The notes beneath the pieces are model-generated. The model ran no database searches and was not told the origin of the DNA. It saw nothing but the letters and a program-made list of their open reading frames with translations. The position numbers and the translations under genes are program-made. DNA of 61,862 nucleotides from Runella sp. (GTDB taxonomy: Bacteria > Bacteroidota > Bacteroidia > Cytophagales > Spirosomataceae): contig JALQYJ010000039.1 of NCBI GenBank assembly GCA_023254175.1, forward strand, positions 1-61,862, given 5' to 3'. Shown here one piece after another: positions 3,273 to 52,220 of the stretch (positions are counted from its first letter, which is position 1; every line of letters begins with the position of its first letter).

Positions 3273-3716
3273 TTGTTCGTCTACCCAATTAACCACTTAC
3301 ATTCAACATTAGCAACGGCACGGCAAACTATTGTTCAGGCCATCAAAAAGTACAGCAAGCAACTTTTTGGCTTCATCCGTCAGCGCGTCAGCAGCGACGA
3401 AGATGCCGAAGATATTTTACAGGACGTTTGGTACCAACTGAGCAGTCAGCCCGAAGTAGGAACCATTGAACAAGTAGGAAGTTGACTGTATCGAGTGGCT
3501 CGGAATCACATTGTAGATAATTGCAAGCAGCGCCCCGAAACCCTCGACGATTACGACTACGAAAATGAAGAAGGCAAAATCGTTTTCAAAGATTTGCTAC
3601 TCACCAACGATGGCATTCCCGAAAGCAACTACCTCCGGGAGCTATTTTGGCAACAACTTATGGAGTTTGATATCCATGTATCATCATCACGGAAAATGTG
3701 GGCACAGACACCTTAG
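3273..3716 (+). pseudogene. ECF sigma-70 factor remnant, nonsense mutation plus lost 3' half
   Basis: Residues such as FIRQRVSSDEDAEDILQDVW followed by LYRVARNHIVDNCKQRPE are sigma-70 region 2 (core RNA polymerase and -10 recognition). The frame is cut by TGA at 3483-3485, exactly where the family has Trp (GSW-LYRVARN); reading continues in frame past it, so this is a simple TGG-to-TGA change or sequencing error. After ELFWQQL (about 3660) the region 4 helix-turn-helix is absent and the frame runs into unrelated residues overlapping the Hsp20 gene. Two independent lesions make a working sigma factor unlikely. The 5' end is uncertain (TTG at 3273). Confidence 0.75.
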
Positions 3717-4059
3717 AGGTGATCAATACCAAGTACCTGTCAATGTATTAAGAACCGAAAACAGCTACGAAATCTTCGTTATCGCCCCCGATCGTGCCAA
3801 AGAAGATTTGAAAATCAGCCTCAAAGGCAACAAATTGACGATTGCGTATCAGGCCAAAGAAAACATTCAAGAAAACCAACAGTGGATTCTCAACGAGTTT
3901 ACCAAGGCTTCGTTTGAACGCACCTTTATGGTCGACGACACCATTGAGTCGGAAGGTATCAAAGCCGAATACCAAAACGGCGTCCTGCAAGTAACGTTGC
4001 CTTTTGTGCCTGGGAGAGATTTTGCTTCTCGTTTCCTACATAAACTCACTCAGCTCTAG
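3676..4059 (+). CDS. Hsp20/alpha-crystallin small heat shock protein, with an altered 5' end
   Basis: Small heat shock protein that holds unfolding proteins in the cytoplasm. Starting at ATG 3676 it has 127 residues: a His-rich head (MYHHHGKCGHRH), then an alpha-crystallin beta-sandwich (VPVNVLRTENSYEIFVIAPD, FERTFMVDDTIESEGIKAEY, NGVLQVTLPF). The head looks foreign to the family: it resembles the beginning of a small His/Cys-rich membrane protein that, as I recall, sits between sigma factor and hsp20 genes in relatives. A deletion may have fused that head to the Hsp20 body (inference). The gene starts exactly where sigma homology ends. The last about 14 residues overlap the 3' end of the convergent uup gene by 24 bases, and the usual ending is not recognised. 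Product may still be made. Confidence 0.6.
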   Translation: MYHHHGKCGHRHLRGDQYQVPVNVLRTENSYEIFVIAPDRAKEDLKISLKGNKLTIAYQAKENIQENQQWILNEFTKASFERTFMVDDTIESEGIKAEYQNGVLQVTLPFVPGRDFASRFLHKLTQL

Positions 4060-5910
4060 CCAGCGCATTTCTTTCTCTTCCAACTCTTCGGTAATGCGCT
4101 CCACTGCTTTGGCCCACACGGCAAAATCCTCGTGCGAGCCAACGCCACCGTTCATTTTTTCAACAAAATCCGCTTTTTGACTTTCCAACTTCACCATGTC
4201 GCTTTCCAACGTCTCAAATTCACGTTGTTCTTTAAACGATAGTTTGCGCTTAGCGGTTGTTGGGGCAGGCGTGGTCTCAGCAGCTTGCAGACGAGGGACT
4301 GATGAAGGTTTAGCGGCGGCGGCTTGCTCTTTATTTTCGGCCAAGAAGTTGCGGTAGTCGGTATAGTTTCCTGGAAAATCACGGATGTGGCCGTTGTCTT
4401 CAAACACAAACAAGTGATCCACCAAACGGTCAAGGAAGTAGCGGTCGTGGGAAACGATGACCAGACACCCTGGAAAATTCATCAAAAACTCTTCGAGCAC
4501 ATTCAGCGTTGTGATGTCAAGATCGTTGGTGGGCTCATCGAGAATCAAAAAATTAGGCTCATGCATCATGACACGCAAAAGCTGCAAGCGACGTTTTTCG
4601 CCCCCGCTCAATTTTTCAATCATTGTTCCTTGCTTATTGGGCGGGAACAAAAATGCCTGTAAATACTGCGAAGCCGTCACAGTTTGTCCCGTCCCTAAGC
4701 GAATCACCTCGGCCACGTCTTTGACCCAATCCACCACCCGTTGGCCATCTTTGTATTCCAAATCCGATTGTGTGTAATAGCCAAACTGCACAGTATCGCC
4801 GCGTACCACTTGGCCGTTGTCGGGACGAAGTTCGCCCGTAATCATGTTGAGCAACGTTGACTTTCCTGCACCATTTTTCCCCACAATACCGATACGGTCG
4901 CCTTTTTTGAAGGTATATAAAAAATTGTGGATGATGGTTTTATCACCGTATTTTTTACCGACGCTATGTAATTCTACAATCTTACTTCCCAAACGCGTCG
5001 ATTTGATATTTAGCTCAATTTGGTTGTCGTATTTACGTTGGTGTGCCTTTTCTTTGGTGTCTTCAAAGGCATCGACGCGGTACTTGGCTTTGGTTCCTCG
5101 GGCTTTGGGTTGACGACGAATCCAGTCGAGTTCTTTGCGGTATAAATTTCGCGCTTTGTCGATTTCGGCGGCTTCTACGGCTTCACGCTCCGCTTTTTTC
5201 TCCAAAAAGTACGCGTAATTGCCTTTGTAAGTATATAAACTTCCGTTATCGAGTTCGACAATGACGTTGCACACCGTATCCAAAAAATAACGGTCGTGCG
5301 TTACCAACAGAAGCGTGGTGTTTTGGGTATTAAGGTAATTTTCGAGCCACTCCACCATGCTCAAGTCGAGGTGGTTGGTAGGTTCATCCAGAATCACCAA
5401 ATCAGGACTTTCAATAAGCACTTTGGCCAATGCAACGCGCTTGCGCTGCCCGCCCGACAGTGTCCCAATTTTTGCCTCAACGTCATAAATGCCTAATTTC
5501 CCCAAAATTTCCTTAACCTTTGCCTCAAAATCCCAGCCTTGCAGCGAATCAACTTGTTCAATGGCACGTGCCAACACCGCATCGTCGCCTAGTATCAGCG
5601 CGCGTTCATATTCTTTGACTGCCGTAGCTACAGGGTTTTTTCCCGAAAAAAGTACTTCCATAATAGGTAGCTGACCGTCAAAATCAGGCGCTTGGTCGAG
5701 GTATCCCACTCGAATGTCTTTTCGAACACTCACCACCCCTTCGTCTGGCGGAGTGAGTCCCGCCAAAATGGTCATCAACGTCGTTTTTCCCGTACCATTG
5801 GCTCCAATAAGCGCCACTTTATCGCCTCGACTTAGCCCCAACGTCATGCCTTTGAACAGCCACTTATCGCCAAAGGACTTCGATATATTTTCTGCAGATA
5901 GGTAATTCAT
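4036..5910 (-). CDS. uup: ABC-F family ATPase, Uup-like
   Basis: Soluble ABC-F protein (624 residues from ATG 5910) that acts on ribosomes or DNA structures rather than in transport. Two complete ATPase cassettes are seen: Walker A GANGTGKTT and GKNGAGKST, signatures LSGGQRKRVALAK and LSGGEKRRLQLLR, Walker B LVILDEPTNHLD and FLILDEPTNDLD. There are no membrane segments. The linker between cassettes is charged (ARGTKAKYRVDAFE), and the C-terminal tail, residues about 550-624, is a Lys/Glu-rich coiled coil typical of Uup and absent from EttA. The start is chosen at MNYLSAENISKSFG; the 23-residue upstream extension is unlike the family. A TACCTTTG box ends five bases upstream of the ATG, so the transcript may be leaderless. 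Confidence 0.88.
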   Translation of the reverse strand: MNYLSAENISKSFGDKWLFKGMTLGLSRGDKVALIGANGTGKTTLMTILAGLTPPDEGVVSVRKDIRVGYLDQAPDFDGQLPIMEVLFSGKNPVATAVKEYERALILGDDAVLARAIEQVDSLQGWDFEAKVKEILGKLGIYDVEAKIGTLSGGQRKRVALAKVLIESPDLVILDEPTNHLDLSMVEWLENYLNTQNTTLLLVTHDRYFLDTVCNVIVELDNGSLYTYKGNYAYFLEKKAEREAVEAAEIDKARNLYRKELDWIRRQPKARGTKAKYRVDAFEDTKEKAHQRKYDNQIELNIKSTRLGSKIVELHSVGKKYGDKTIIHNFLYTFKKGDRIGIVGKNGAGKSTLLNMITGELRPDNGQVVRGDTVQFGYYTQSDLEYKDGQRVVDWVKDVAEVIRLGTGQTVTASQYLQAFLFPPNKQGTMIEKLSGGEKRRLQLLRVMMHEPNFLILDEPTNDLDITTLNVLEEFLMNFPGCLVIVSHDRYFLDRLVDHLFVFEDNGHIRDFPGNYTDYRNFLAENKEQAAAAKPSSVPRLQAAETTPAPTTAKRKLSFKEQREFETLESDMVKLESQKADFVEKMNGGVGSHEDFAVWAKAVERITEELEEKEMRWLELSEFM

Positions 5911-47312: not shown

Positions 47313-50300
47313 ATGCAATTCTCCCACCTCCACTGCCACACCCAATATTCCCTACTCGACGGGGCGGCAGATATAAAAAAACTGTTTAAAAAGGCCAAAG
47401 CCGACGACATGCCCGCCATCGCCATTACCGACCACGGCAATATGTTTGGCGTATTTGAGTTTGTGGCCGAAGGGCATAAACAAGGCATCAAACCCATCGT
47501 GGGTTGCGAGTTTTATTTGGTGGAAGACCGCCACAAAAAACAGTTTACCAAAGAACAAAAGGACGTTCGCCGCCACCAGTTATTGTTGGCCAAAAACGCC
47601 GAAGGCTACCGCAACTTGGCCAAACTCTGTTCGCTGGGCTTCATCGAAGGTATGTATGGCAAATACCCACGCATCGACAAAGAACTGCTGGTCAAGTACC
47701 ACAAAGGACTCATCGCTACGACTTGTTGCATCGGGGCAAGTGTACCACAGGCAATCATCAAAAAAGGTGAGGAAGCAGGCCGCCGAGAGTTTAAGTGGTG
47801 GCTCGATTTGTTTGGAGAAGATTATTACGTCGAAATCCAACGACACGGTATCCGCGACCAAAATATCGCTAACGAAGCACTCCTAAAATATGCCAAAGAG
47901 TTTAATGTCAAGGTGATATGCTCCAACGATAGCCACTACGTAGAGCAAGACGACGCCAACGCCCACGATATTTTGTTGTGCGTCAATACGGGTGATAAAC
48001 AATCTACGCCTACCAACAAGGACTTTGACGACGAGAATCCGATGCCCAAAGGCACGCGCTTTGCATTTTTCAACGATGAGTTTTATTTCAAAACCAAAGA
48101 CGAAATGCTCAAAACGTTCAGTGATCTGCCCGAATCGCTGGACAATACGCAAGAAATCGTTGATAAAGTAGAGTTGTTAAAGCTCAATCGGGATATTTTA
48201 TTGCCCAACTTCCCCATTCCTGAAGAGTTCAAAAAGCACAGTATTTCGCAAATGATTGAGTTCAACGGCAAAATGAAAGAACTCACCGCCGACGTACTCA
48301 ACCAATGGGAATACCTCAAACACTGGACCTTTGAAGGTGCACGGAAGAAATACAAAGAAATTACGCCCGAAATCGAAGAACGACTCACCTTTGAGCTGAA
48401 TACCATTAAAAATATGGGTTTTCCTGGCTACTTTCTTATTGTAGCCGACTTTATCCAAGCAGGGCGAGACATGGGCGTGCTTATCGGCCCTGGACGGGGG
48501 TCGGCAGCAGGGAGCGCCGTAGCGTATGCCATCGGAATTACCAACATCGACCCCATCAAATACGACCTGCTTTTTGAGCGTTTCTTAAACCCCGACCGTA
48601 TCTCCATGCCTGATATTGATACGGACTTCGACGACGAAGGCCGCCAACGGGTGATTGATTACGTGGTGCAGAAATACGGTAAAAATCAGGTGGCTCAAAT
48701 CATCACCTACGGTACAATGGCCGCTAAATCGTCGATTAAAGACGTAGCGCGGGTAATGGACTTACCGCTGCAAGAAGCCAATGCCGTGGTGAAACTTGTG
48801 CCCGATAAGCCAACTTATGGCATGAACCTCGACAAGGTTTTCAAAGTACCGCTCGAAAAAATGGCGGAAGTCGTGACTACCGACGAGGTAGAAAACCTGA
48901 AGAAATTACGTGAAATGCTCAAGGGCAACGACCTGACAGCCAAAGTCCTTAAAGAAGCTCAAAAACTGGAAGGGACTGTTCGAAACGTAGGTATTCACGC
49001 CGCAGGGATTATCATTGCCCCTTCTGATTTAACCGACCTGATTCCCGTTAGTACCTCCAAAGAATCGGAGTTATTGATTACCCAATACGAGGGAAAAATC
49101 ATTGAAGATGCGGGAGTCATCAAAATGGACTTTTTGGGGCTTCGTAACTTGACCATCATCAAGGAAGCCCTTCGGATGATTGAGGCCAACCACGGAGTTA
49201 AAATTGACATTGACTACATTCCACTCGACGATGTCAAGGTATTTGAACTCTTCCAACGAGGGGATACCAACGCCGTATTTCAATTTGAATCCGACGGAAT
49301 GAAGAAGTACATGCGCGAACTCAAACCTGACCGCTTTGAAGACCTCATCGCCATGAACGCCCTGTATCGCCCAGGCCCGATTGCGTACATTCCTAACTTT
49401 ATCAACCGTAAACACGGCCGTGAAAAAGTAGAATACGACCTACCCGAAATGGAGGAGTATTTAGCTGATACGTACGGAATTTGTGTGACAGGCGATACGC
49501 TTATTCACGATGCAAAAACGGGAGAACGAGTACGGATTGAGAGCCTTGCCAATCGCGTTGGAGAGTTCTGGGTACAAGGCATCAACGATGATTTATTACC
49601 TGAATCAGCTCCTATTACGCATTGGGTATGCAATGGTGAAAAAGAAGTCCTCGAAATACGTCTACGTAATGGCAGTAAGGTAAAACTTACACCTGACCAT
49701 AAAATATTAACCGAAACAGGCTGGCAAGAAGCGAGTAGTTTACAAGTAGGAAGTGTGATTGCAACTCCTCGGAAGTTATTCGTTGAAAATGAACAAGACT
49801 ATGACCGTGATAAATTACGGGTTTTAGCCTACATTCTTGCCGACAGTTCGTTGAGCGGTTTTGATGATACGGCAGATTTTGAACGTTTGGAACCCCGAAC
49901 TTTACAACAAGTTCGCGACATAACAAGAGTAATGGTAGCAGGAACCGAGAAAACGCACTACCATGAAACCAATTCGCTGGTGGTACAATTGAGAGAATGG
50001 GGACTCAAAACAATGAAGGGAGGCTGCCGCTCTGATGAAAAATTTGTTCCAGAATTTATATTTGGATTAACGGAAGACGCCATCGCCTTCTTTCTTGCAT
50101 CGTTATGGGACTGCGATGGGTATATTGGCAAAGATTTGAATCATTTTAAAACGATTTCTCCCCAATTAGCCAATGATGTAAAAACCTTACTTCTTCGCTT
50201 AGGAATTTATTCGGTGACTTATCAATCAACCTATCATAATAATCGTCGGAACCAAGAAATGACGGCCTATCAGGTCAACGTTTATAACCTCAAGGCATTT

Positions 50301-52220
50301 GCCGAATTAATTGGCCCTCACCTCGTCGCTAAAAAAATACAAAACACACATCTATCAGGCCACCAAGTGCATGATAATATCTCCCGTGCGTTGTTTTCAG
50401 ACGAACTAGGCCAAGTTTGGAAAGGCTCTGGTCGTGGGCTTATGGATAAATATAGCTTCGACCGTCAACATCTTTTATCGCAAAAAGCTCGCAACTACCC
50501 CCGTATTTCGTTAAAAGCGGTGTTGCCATTAATAGAAAAACTTCCACTTAATCAATCCGCTCGTCTAGCCAAAATCCGATGGGACGAAATTGTGGAAATC
50601 AAAGCCATTGGTAAAGAAAAAGTATATGATATTACAGTAGCAGGAATTCACAATTTTGTTGGAAACAACATCATTCTCCATAATTGTACGTATCAAGAGC
50701 AAATTATGCTGCTTTCGCAGAAAATGGCAGGCTTTACCAAAGGGGATGCTGACGTTTTGCGGAAGGCCATGGGGAAAAAGCAGATTGAGGTACTGAACAA
50801 GATGAAAAGTAAGTTCATTGAGGGAGGAAAAAAGAAGGGACTCGACGAGAAAAAACTCGATAAAGTCTGGACCGACTGGGAAGCTTTTGCCTCTTATGCC
50901 TTCAACAAATCACACTCAACTTGCTACGCCTTTGTAGCCTACCAAACGGCTTACCTCAAAGCTCATTACCCTGCCGAATACATGGCGGCGGTCTTGACGA
51001 GCTCACTAGGAAACATCGAAAAAATCACATTCTTCCTCGAAGAATGTAAAGCCCTCGGAGTTCCTGTACTAGGCCCCGATGTCAACGAATCGGAACGCCG
51101 TTTTGGGGTAAACAAACGCGGCGAAATTCGTTTTGGATTGGGAGGTATTAAAGGAACAGGCGACGCCGCCGTAGAAAGTATCATCGAAGAACGAACCAAA
51201 AACGGCCCTTTCAAAGACCTTTTTGACTTTATTACTCGTGTCAATCTACGAACTGTCAATAAAAAAACCATCGAATCGCTCGCGTACGCAGGCGCCTTCG
51301 ACTTGTTTGAGGAATACCATCGCGCTCAATACTTTACGGCGGTTGATGGCGAACAGCAAAACTTAATTGAAAAATTAATCAAATACGCCAACGCCGTTCA
51401 AGCCGACAAATCCAATGCACAAGCGTCGTTGTTTGGCGGCTTTGGTGGAAGTGGCGCCGATATTGCCAAACCTAAGGCACCTAACGTCGCACAATGGAGT
51501 GACATTGAGCGGTTACGATATGAGAAAGACGTAGTTGGGTTTTATATTTCAGGACACCCGCTTGATATGTATCGTTTGGAATTGACCAACTTCTGTACCT
51601 GTACCCTCGATAAAGTGATGCTTACCTCAGAATCGACGGGTACCAGCGACAACGAAGACAGCGATACACCTGCCGTTGCCAACGTTGAAATCGGCGGGCG
51701 ACCACTTTTGTTTGGGAAAGATATTACCGTGGCAGGCATTGTAAGTAGTAGTCAAGTTCGAACTACCAAAACGGGCAACCCTTTCTGTATCTTCAAACTC
51801 GAAGATTATGCGGGGTCGATGGAAATGGCACTCTTTGGAGAAGATTTTGTAAAGTTTTCGGCTTACGTCCAAATGGGGCATTTCTTATTTGTCAAAGGCA
51901 AAATCCAAAACCGCTGGAAACAAGAAGACCAGTACGAATTCAAAATTACCTCCATGCAATTGTTGAGCGAAGTACGCGAAAAGCTCACGAAAGAAATCAA
52001 ACTACAGTTGGATTTAGATTTACTAGATAGTGGGCTGGTAATGAAGCTCAATCAGGCTGTACAAGCCTACCCTGGCCACTGTGCCCTTACGGTCTCAGTG
52101 GTAGACCATGAAAGTAGAACCGAAGTAAAACTGCAATCAAGAACGCACCGAGTAGCCCCCTCCAACGAATTTTTTAAACTAATTGGAGCGATGGGAGGAG
52201 TTAATTTTTCAGTCAATTAA
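47313..52220 (+). CDS. dnaE: DNA polymerase III alpha subunit with in-frame intein
   Basis: Replicative polymerase; 1635 codons including a 401-residue intein (residues 724-1124), leaving a 1234-residue mature protein. N-terminal PHP domain (FSHLHCHTQYSLLDGAADI, AITDHGNMFG), catalytic palm with DIDTD Asp residues 434, 436 and 438, then GRGSAAGS, ALYRPGP, and after the intein YQEQIMLLSQKMAGF, FNKSHSTCYAF, a helix-hairpin-helix and an OB domain (VAGIVSSSQVRTTKTGNPFC) near residue 1470. The intein breaks the sequence between TYGI and CTYQEQ, close to the active site. The site is not the one used by the split cyanobacterial DnaE intein, which lies at FNKSHST. Confidence 0.95.
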   Translation: MQFSHLHCHTQYSLLDGAADIKKLFKKAKADDMPAIAITDHGNMFGVFEFVAEGHKQGIKPIVGCEFYLVEDRHKKQFTKEQKDVRRHQLLLAKNAEGYRNLAKLCSLGFIEGMYGKYPRIDKELLVKYHKGLIATTCCIGASVPQAIIKKGEEAGRREFKWWLDLFGEDYYVEIQRHGIRDQNIANEALLKYAKEFNVKVICSNDSHYVEQDDANAHDILLCVNTGDKQSTPTNKDFDDENPMPKGTRFAFFNDEFYFKTKDEMLKTFSDLPESLDNTQEIVDKVELLKLNRDILLPNFPIPEEFKKHSISQMIEFNGKMKELTADVLNQWEYLKHWTFEGARKKYKEITPEIEERLTFELNTIKNMGFPGYFLIVADFIQAGRDMGVLIGPGRGSAAGSAVAYAIGITNIDPIKYDLLFERFLNPDRISMPDIDTDFDDEGRQRVIDYVVQKYGKNQVAQIITYGTMAAKSSIKDVARVMDLPLQEANAVVKLVPDKPTYGMNLDKVFKVPLEKMAEVVTTDEVENLKKLREMLKGNDLTAKVLKEAQKLEGTVRNVGIHAAGIIIAPSDLTDLIPVSTSKESELLITQYEGKIIEDAGVIKMDFLGLRNLTIIKEALRMIEANHGVKIDIDYIPLDDVKVFELFQRGDTNAVFQFESDGMKKYMRELKPDRFEDLIAMNALYRPGPIAYIPNFINRKHGREKVEYDLPEMEEYLADTYGICVTGDTLIHDAKTGERVRIESLANRVGEFWVQGINDDLLPESAPITHWVCNGEKEVLEIRLRNGSKVKLTPDHKILTETGWQEASSLQVGSVIATPRKLFVENEQDYDRDKLRVLAYILADSSLSGFDDTADFERLEPRTLQQVRDITRVMVAGTEKTHYHETNSLVVQLREWGLKTMKGGCRSDEKFVPEFIFGLTEDAIAFFLASLWDCDGYIGKDLNHFKTISPQLANDVKTLLLRLGIYSVTYQSTYHNNRRNQEMTAYQVNVYNLKAFAELIGPHLVAKKIQNTHLSGHQVHDNISRALFSDELGQVWKGSGRGLMDKYSFDRQHLLSQKARNYPRISLKAVLPLIEKLPLNQSARLAKIRWDEIVEIKAIGKEKVYDITVAGIHNFVGNNIILHNCTYQEQIMLLSQKMAGFTKGDADVLRKAMGKKQIEVLNKMKSKFIEGGKKKGLDEKKLDKVWTDWEAFASYAFNKSHSTCYAFVAYQTAYLKAHYPAEYMAAVLTSSLGNIEKITFFLEECKALGVPVLGPDVNESERRFGVNKRGEIRFGLGGIKGTGDAAVESIIEERTKNGPFKDLFDFITRVNLRTVNKKTIESLAYAGAFDLFEEYHRAQYFTAVDGEQQNLIEKLIKYANAVQADKSNAQASLFGGFGGSGADIAKPKAPNVAQWSDIERLRYEKDVVGFYISGHPLDMYRLELTNFCTCTLDKVMLTSESTGTSDNEDSDTPAVANVEIGGRPLLFGKDITVAGIVSSSQVRTTKTGNPFCIFKLEDYAGSMEMALFGEDFVKFSAYVQMGHFLFVKGKIQNRWKQEDQYEFKITSMQLLSEVREKLTKEIKLQLDLDLLDSGLVMKLNQAVQAYPGHCALTVSVVDHESRTEVKLQSRTHRVAPSNEFFKLIGAMGGVNFSVN
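49482..50684 (+). other. DnaE intein with LAGLIDADG homing endonuclease domain
   Basis: Self-splicing protein element of 401 residues inside dnaE. It starts at Cys (CVTGDTLIHDAKTG, block A), block B has the TxxH histidine (KLTPDHKILTETGW, intein residue 73), block F is VYDITVAGIHNFVGNN, and it ends in His-Asn (IILHN) followed by Cys as first extein residue, so all splicing residues are intact. Two DOD/LAGLIDADG motifs, LAYILADSSL (Asp at intein residue 121) and FLASLWDCDGYI (Asp at 212), lie 91 residues apart. Both acidic residues are kept, so the endonuclease may be active. The region looks more AT-rich by eye than the flanking dnaE. Confidence 0.93.

Follow-up and report, generated by a model that had tools for sequence, protein, structure and literature searches.

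A dnaE intein with a damaged LAGLIDADG domain in Runella, and altered insertion sites in intein-free members of the genus

Barzel et al. 2011 (PMC3229294; cited here together with Gogarten and Hilario 2006, PMC1654191) describe a homing-endonuclease cycle of active (Z), decayed (Y) and empty (X) alleles, in which a host can escape by a target-site change (X') only if it bears the cost of a changed conserved motif. Precedents for patchily distributed inteins with empty relatives are found in the PRP8 intein paper (PMC1508164) and a survey of Halobacteria (PMC4071816). In a survey of the PolIII alpha subunit (PMC3919608), inteins were excised before the analysis, and the dnaE intein described in Thiomargarita nelsonii (PMC4853749) carries neither a LAGLIDADG nor a homing endonuclease domain. 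Passages of PMC2814812, PMC5874633 and PMC3359363 contain nothing on the insertion site described here. No paper on a Runella with an intein was found in the open-licence literature, though absence from print is not claimed. Runella is an environmental genus, partly in culture.

The solved splicing domains nearest by sequence to the intein described here are those of inteins at the DnaB site (DLRESG/S; Ssp DnaB, PDB 1mi8 and 6frg). These have the same overall plan, but are found in another host gene and at another target, share about 30 % identity and form a separate group in the tree. The cyanobacterial split DnaE inteins (Ssp and Npu) share the host gene but gave weaker sequence matches than the DnaB inteins. 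They are split in two at a site, FNK/C, about 75 residues downstream of the one in Runella.

The window, which is the whole 61 862 nt stretch analysed, includes a single open frame of 1635 aa that is dnaE with an in-frame insert. The product contains the Pfam domains PHP, DNA_pol3_alpha, finger, HHH and OB, and scores above the cut-off for NCBIfam NF004226. A search of the window genome gave a single dnaE match. The insert, residues 724–1124 of the precursor, is flanked by ...ADTYGI and CTYQEQ... and interrupts the Pfam finger domain. In an alignment with the E. coli alpha subunit, in which the catalytic aspartates are residues 401, 403 and 555, the junction corresponds to I683/I684. The original prediction located 401 extra residues between TYGI and CTYQEQ at 49482–50684, and this is exact to the base. 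The features, with the basis for each assignment, are:

47313–52220, forward strand: dnaE, DNA polymerase III alpha subunit (1635 aa precursor; 1234 aa once spliced)
49470–49481, forward strand: TYGI, last four residues of the N-extein, within the finger domain of the polymerase (Pfam, alignment)
49482–50684, forward strand: class 1 intein, 401 aa, Cys1 ... His-Asn/Cys+1 (profile matches; missing in 9/13 Runella dnaE)
49482–49781, forward strand: N-terminal splicing region, residues 1–100, with Cys1 and block B TPDH at 49689–49700 (NCBIfam, match to 6frg/1mi8)
49782–50342, forward strand: LAGLIDADG endonuclease domain, residues 101–287, damaged (Pfam, alignment; fold match from a 419 aa orthologue)
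49821–49847, forward strand: LAGLIDADG motif 1, VLAYILADS, residues 114–122 (Asp121 retained; Ser replaces the Gly after it)
49875–49880, forward strand: deletion point, 54 nt (18 aa) missing relative to orthologues (alignment)
50094–50120, forward strand: LAGLIDADG motif 2, LASLWDCDG, residues 205–213 (D210/D212 present)
50571–50684, forward strand: C-terminal splicing region, residues 364–401, with YDITV, HNF and NNIILHN (NCBIfam, comparison with DnaB inteins)
50685–50687, forward strand: +1 codon TGT (Cys), the C-extein nucleophile (Thr in 17/17 non-Runella genomes of the column test)

The insert is not a normal DnaE domain. In eight of the 13 Runella genomes, a full-length frame crosses the site uninterrupted, and a ninth empty genome (G002), in which dnaE is divided between contigs, is continuous across it. 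The site was also rightly distinguished from that of the split inteins. FNKSHST, the stretch that is the cyanobacterial split-intein site, is uninterrupted about 75 residues downstream of the insert, and the host gene is undivided.

The insert matched Pfam Intein_splicing (6.8e-24), TIGR01445 intein_Nterm (8e-11) and TIGR01443 intein_Cterm (1.2e-4), and its splicing region matched the solved DnaB mini-inteins 6frg (1.4e-21) and 1mi8. Both of the matches obtained when the window genome was searched with PF14890 belong to it. Cys1, T70-P-D-H73, H400-N401 and Cys+1 are all present, so that the claim of intact splicing residues holds. A class 1 cis-splicing intein is recognized as an in-frame insert with Cys or Ser at position 1, a block B TxxH, a C-terminal His-Asn and Cys, Ser or Thr at +1 that is missing from orthologous hosts; all of these features were found here, with nine of the 13 Runella empty and no dnaE match to the intein in any of the 209 other genomes of the family. 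On these features, the insert is classified as a class 1 cis-splicing-type intein with a LAGLIDADG domain in a genus of the Bacteroidota, and the profile matches and residues bear out the original prediction to this extent. Because the splicing residues are present, the precursor most likely splices by the standard class 1 pathway. This would involve an acyl shift at Cys1, transfer to Cys+1 and cyclisation of Asn401, and would yield an active polymerase bearing Cys where Thr is native.

The intein is real, correctly located and ordinary in kind, and the genus shows intact-looking, decayed and empty states. The best explanation, to which we assign a probability of about 0.8, is that it is an old class 1 intein in the TYGI/(T)VYQEQ finger motif, long resident in Runella, in which splicing is kept and the endonuclease is decaying.

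The embedded LAGLIDADG endonuclease would formerly have spread the element to dnaE alleles that lacked it. Both motifs of the window copy retain their catalytic Asp residues, as had been noted (D121 in LAYILADS, D210/D212 in LWDCDG). However, the match to Pfam LAGLIDADG_3 (1.3e-13) covers only residues 201–278, and the window intein is 401 aa long versus 419 aa in the three Runella orthologues. The 18 aa are absent, in frame, directly behind motif 1 and from the window copy only. The missing segment (of the type DFVSKDPxLxxAYT) is kept in all eight other inteins at or one codon from the site, namely three from Runella, four from genus g36 and one from a Paenarthrobacter plasmid. In the R. limosa sequence, TTTG borders the missing stretch on both ends, as slippage would predict. 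The residue following the motif 1 Asp is Ser in the window copy and Gly in 3/3 Runella orthologues, and that following motif 2 is Tyr in the window copy and His in 3/3. The change of Gly to Ser in motif 1 was rejected as sole proof of inactivity, because Ser occupies the corresponding position of motif 2 in L037, a related DnaB intein.

A structure search with a model of a 419 aa orthologue matched endonuclease-bearing inteins (7qss, 1.8e-21). In this model, the segment covers most of strand 132–135 and of helix 138–152, and in the model of the 401 aa form residues 123–162 are below pLDDT 50; both models are modest (mean pLDDT 70 and 67), with block means around the deletion below 62. While the two motifs with catalytic Asp were found in the window copy, intact DNA-binding strands and helices in both half-domains were not, model confidence being low there.

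Changes since the window and R. limosa copies split were polarised using the other two Runella carriers (G011 and G005) as outgroups. The window intein has accumulated 22 amino acid changes and the R. limosa copy 6 (12 unresolved; binomial p=0.004); the endonuclease plus linker accounts for 16 of the changes in the window copy and 3 of those in the R. limosa copy. On the window branch, the N-terminal splicing region has six changes, mostly conservative, and none was resolved in the C-terminal splicing region. Third-position changes in the intein number 64 and 56 (62 unresolved), and the amino acid and third-position counts differ (Fisher p=0.019). In the exteins, amino acid changes are 3/3 and 11/7 (window/R. 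limosa), and relative to the combined 14 to 10 the intein excess of 22 to 6 does not reach significance (Fisher p=0.14). For the three intact copies, pN/pS is 0.125–0.157 for the endonuclease and 0.144–0.191 for the splicing region, indicating that they are about equally constrained. As the endonuclease is constrained in the intact copies, and is shortened and fast-changing in the window copy, it has been maintained within Runella, and the window genome is probably losing it. We consider the window endonuclease to be probably inactive, although both motifs still have their catalytic Asp and changes in this region may be tolerated by some active LAGLIDADG enzymes. Homing would need a cut of an empty dnaE, a step probably lost in the window genome. 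With the endonuclease under relaxed constraint after the loss of 18 residues, the element would probably be kept only because it splices.

The description of a full-length intein does not stand, as 18 of 419 aa, all from the endonuclease, are gone. The description of a complete homing element is contradicted by this deletion after motif 1, by the change of the motif Gly to Ser and by the 22 versus 6 changes. The lesson from the window is a modest one, namely that intact motifs are no proof of an intact homing element.

Inteins at the same codon were found in 4/13 Runella genomes and the remaining 9/13 are empty. The carriers are the window genome (G000), R. limosa DSM 17973 (G004), Runella sp. 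CRIBMP (G011) and the metagenome-assembled Spirosomataceae bacterium Prado035 (G005). The last three inteins share the splicing residues and are 90, 79 and 77 % identical to the window copy, respectively, but are 419 aa long and have the first endonuclease half intact. Across the family, 6/222 genomes match the intein, and the four with matches in dnaE are all Runella. The matches in G018 and G216, and additional ones in G004 and G005, are 32–34 % identical and are in DnaB.

Outside the family, the same site is filled in 4/120 genomes of g36, a genus of another family in the same order. These inteins (in G447, G971, G948 and G968) are at SQGI/CVYQEQ, are 418–419 aa long and have the same endonuclease. 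The G447 and R. limosa copies share 56 % identity. The native +1 residue of g36 is Met. A further intein is in dnaE of plasmid pYJN5-1 of Paenarthrobacter sp. YJN-5 (GenBank accession number NZ_CP053545.1). It is 418 aa long, shares the motif 2 signature LWDCDG.IG and KTIS, and has 32 % identity with the intein of R. limosa. However, it lies one codon further downstream (TYGVF/CFQES), in an actinobacterial plasmid polymerase, and has a long branch. In a tree of 29 inteins (root arbitrary), a 100/99 branch separates the nine that are at or one codon from the TYGI site from the DnaB-site inteins and two other DnaE-site groups. The window intein thus belongs, by codon and by descent, to a TYGI-site group; the place of the plasmid member in this group, one codon off and with a branch of 3.16, is unsure.

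By parsimony, the distribution in Runella may reflect either 4 gains or 6–8 losses of the intein. The dnaE and gyrB+parE trees both place the window genome with G010, G001 and G004. Use of rpoB as the species marker was rejected, as two fragments from the window genome disagree and G005 had no match, and gyrB+parE were used instead. The dnaE of G006 and G008 nests in the clade of the window genome, and both gyrB+parE and rpoB put these two genomes elsewhere. From this conflict, whole dnaE alleles appear likely to move within Runella, and such movement would be a route for both gain and loss of the intein.

What most merits attention is that the insertion site is altered throughout the genus. 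Across the 13 Runella genomes, the +1 residue is Cys in 6 (the four carriers, where it is expected, and the empty genomes G010 and G003), Ser in 4, Asn in 2 and Ala in 1, and is never Thr. The +2 residue is Thr in 11/13, and G006 and G008, which have Asn at +1, keep Val. In 17 non-Runella genomes, those with the best-scoring dnaE loci, Thr occupies +1 and Val +2 without exception. Of 27 more genomes from the family and order (G018 and G022 were left out), 26 were readable (G025 gave no site), with TV in 15, MV in 8, MI in 2 and FI in 1. Hence, +1 varies order-wide too, and is Thr in 32, Met in 10 and Phe in 1 of the 43 non-Runella genomes read, with C, S, N or A in none of them.

Among 448 columns that are invariant in the 17 outgroup genomes, 13 vary in Runella. 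The +1 column is the sole one of these with four states, and is one of two at which all Runella depart from the outgroup. Changed columns make up 4/19 within 14 residues of the site versus 9/429 elsewhere (p=0.0013), or 4/19 versus 7/429 when only the nine empty genomes are considered (p=0.0006), where the 14-residue width was picked after the list was seen and the sequences are related by descent and not independent. The exact T-V pattern was found in 190/222 family genomes, which is 190/209 of the non-Runella (19 misses) and 0/13 of the Runella. The pattern of an empty site with Cys+1 was found in 2/390 genomes of the order, namely G010 and G514 (in a 23-residue frame that is not DnaE), with G003 outside this sample, and in 0/120 genomes of g36. 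In contrast to Runella, g36 has kept its native Met-Val in 52/55 sampled genomes, the exceptions being carriers G447 and G968, and G978 (82 % complete).

An altered +1 residue at an empty site may reflect past occupancy, target escape or unrelated drift. We tentatively suggest, at somewhat less than even odds, that this intein was formerly common in the dnaE of Runella and that the nine empty species bear the marks of a contest in an otherwise invariant finger motif. Cys would have been left by precise loss in two of them. In the other seven, Ser, Asn or Ala (with Tyr changed to Gln too in one) would be either drifted scars or target changes that block re-invasion. Alleles with Ser, Ala or Cys have Thr at +2 and Ile at +7 in common with the carriers, which links them. 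If the suggested history is true, the genus holds at one codon all the alleles that homing-endonuclease models predict, namely Z (intact), Y (decayed), X (empty) and X' (escape). One small genus supplies candidates for every allele state at one codon of an essential replicase, so that the cleavage, the splicing and the polymerase cost associated with each +1 residue could be measured directly.

Less probable, and in our view unlikely, is that the empty alleles were never occupied, with the constraint on +1 and +2 relaxed for another reason and a chance Cys opening the site to four gains. A single base separates each of the Ser, Asn and Ala codons (TCG/TCA, AAC and GCA) from a Thr codon, an observation in favour of target change or relaxed constraint. 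Relaxation unconnected with the intein sits poorly with the clustering of changed columns at the site, measured over a width set post hoc. Four gains are also cheaper in events than 6–8 losses, and the retention of Val at +2 in G006 and G008 fits sites that were never filled. However, the T-V pattern of most of the family is absent from all Runella, and g36, which also has an intein at this site, has largely kept its native residue. Codon parsimony for the ancestral +1 residue gave a tie of Cys and Ser. Thr joins the tie on both gyrB+parE topologies but needs one more step on the dnaE maximum-likelihood tree, and this result too is compatible with sites that were never occupied. Cys alone is best as the ancestor only if G011 is placed beside three Ser genomes.

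It had also been proposed that the element reflects a fairly recent transfer. We regard it as improbable that a complete, active homing intein has recently arrived in the window Runella by horizontal transfer. The patchy distribution, the retained catalytic Asp and the filled site in g36 would suit a newcomer, whereas the 18 aa deletion by motif 1 and the faster amino acid change would not. In addition, intein dS exceeds N-extein dS in 6/6 carrier pairs and C-extein dS in 4/5 computable pairs (the exception is G004-G011, and G000-G011 is saturated). For the least diverged pair, the window genome and R. limosa, intein dS is 1.67 and that of the exteins 0.81 and 1.14; dS values above 1 are near saturation, and the other carrier pairs, being near it, are less informative. 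Sliding third-position identity of the exteins revealed no co-conversion dip beside the site. The nearest non-Runella inteins found were those in g36, the G447 copy being at 56 % identity to that of R. limosa, though a donor outside the sample is possible. Unrooted, the inteins group as ((G000,G004),(G005,G011)), in keeping with the host trees. As intein divergence mostly equals or exceeds that of the host gene and does not drop near the site, the evidence agrees with an intein that is old in Runella and not newly arrived, whether through long residence or through old gains from unsampled donors.

Base composition, proposed as a check for foreign origin, does not single the intein out. The GC content is 0.414 and GC3 is 0.352, against extein GC3 of 0.562 and 0.475, a difference that would suit a recent arrival. 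However, GC3 in the 30 window ORFs of at least 300 codons, dnaE included, is 0.341–0.586, and in 4/4 carriers intein GC3 (0.28–0.42) is below that of its own exteins. As the intein lies inside this range, its composition is no mark of foreign origin and that explanation was rejected. A scan of viral contigs for a reservoir gave 48 pattern matches, none related. Four records were obtained in a phage scan (annotated as terminase, RecA and DnaB helicase) and four in a plasmid scan, one of them in dnaE.

That the insert or its shortened form is an assembly or binning artefact from a mixed bin is very improbable, as the 199 contigs of the window genome and its two rpoB fragments (contigs C198 and C113), which differ at 264/933 overlapping positions, are outweighed by the one continuous 1635-codon frame of insert and exteins, the same insert at the same codon on separate contigs of three further genomes, and the agreement of dnaE with gyrB+parE on the position of the window genome, though the 54 nt deletion may come from a collapsed or chimeric read stack. 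The discordant rpoB fragments suggest that there is some foreign sequence in the window bin.

Other inteins were noted during the searches. R. limosa, G005 and G018, which is from another genus of the family, each have two dnaB inteins, one at the P-loop (MGK/T) and one at DLRESG/S. None was detected in dnaB of the window genome by profile and sequence search, which a divergent P-loop intein might escape. The plasmid pYJN5-1 dnaE intein (L189) is at 3501–4754 of NZ_CP053545.1. Unsplit DnaE inteins, mostly large enough to hold an endonuclease, are found at FNK/SHS (FNR/SHS in some), where the cyanobacterial intein is split, in genomes of the phylum (L193, L194, L162, L165, L166 and L170); five are 379–446 aa long and L170 is short. 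A third nearby DnaE site, LRR/SMGKK (MRR/SIGKK in L164), is occupied by inteins of 419–423 aa in four genomes of the phylum (L160, L161, L163 and L164).
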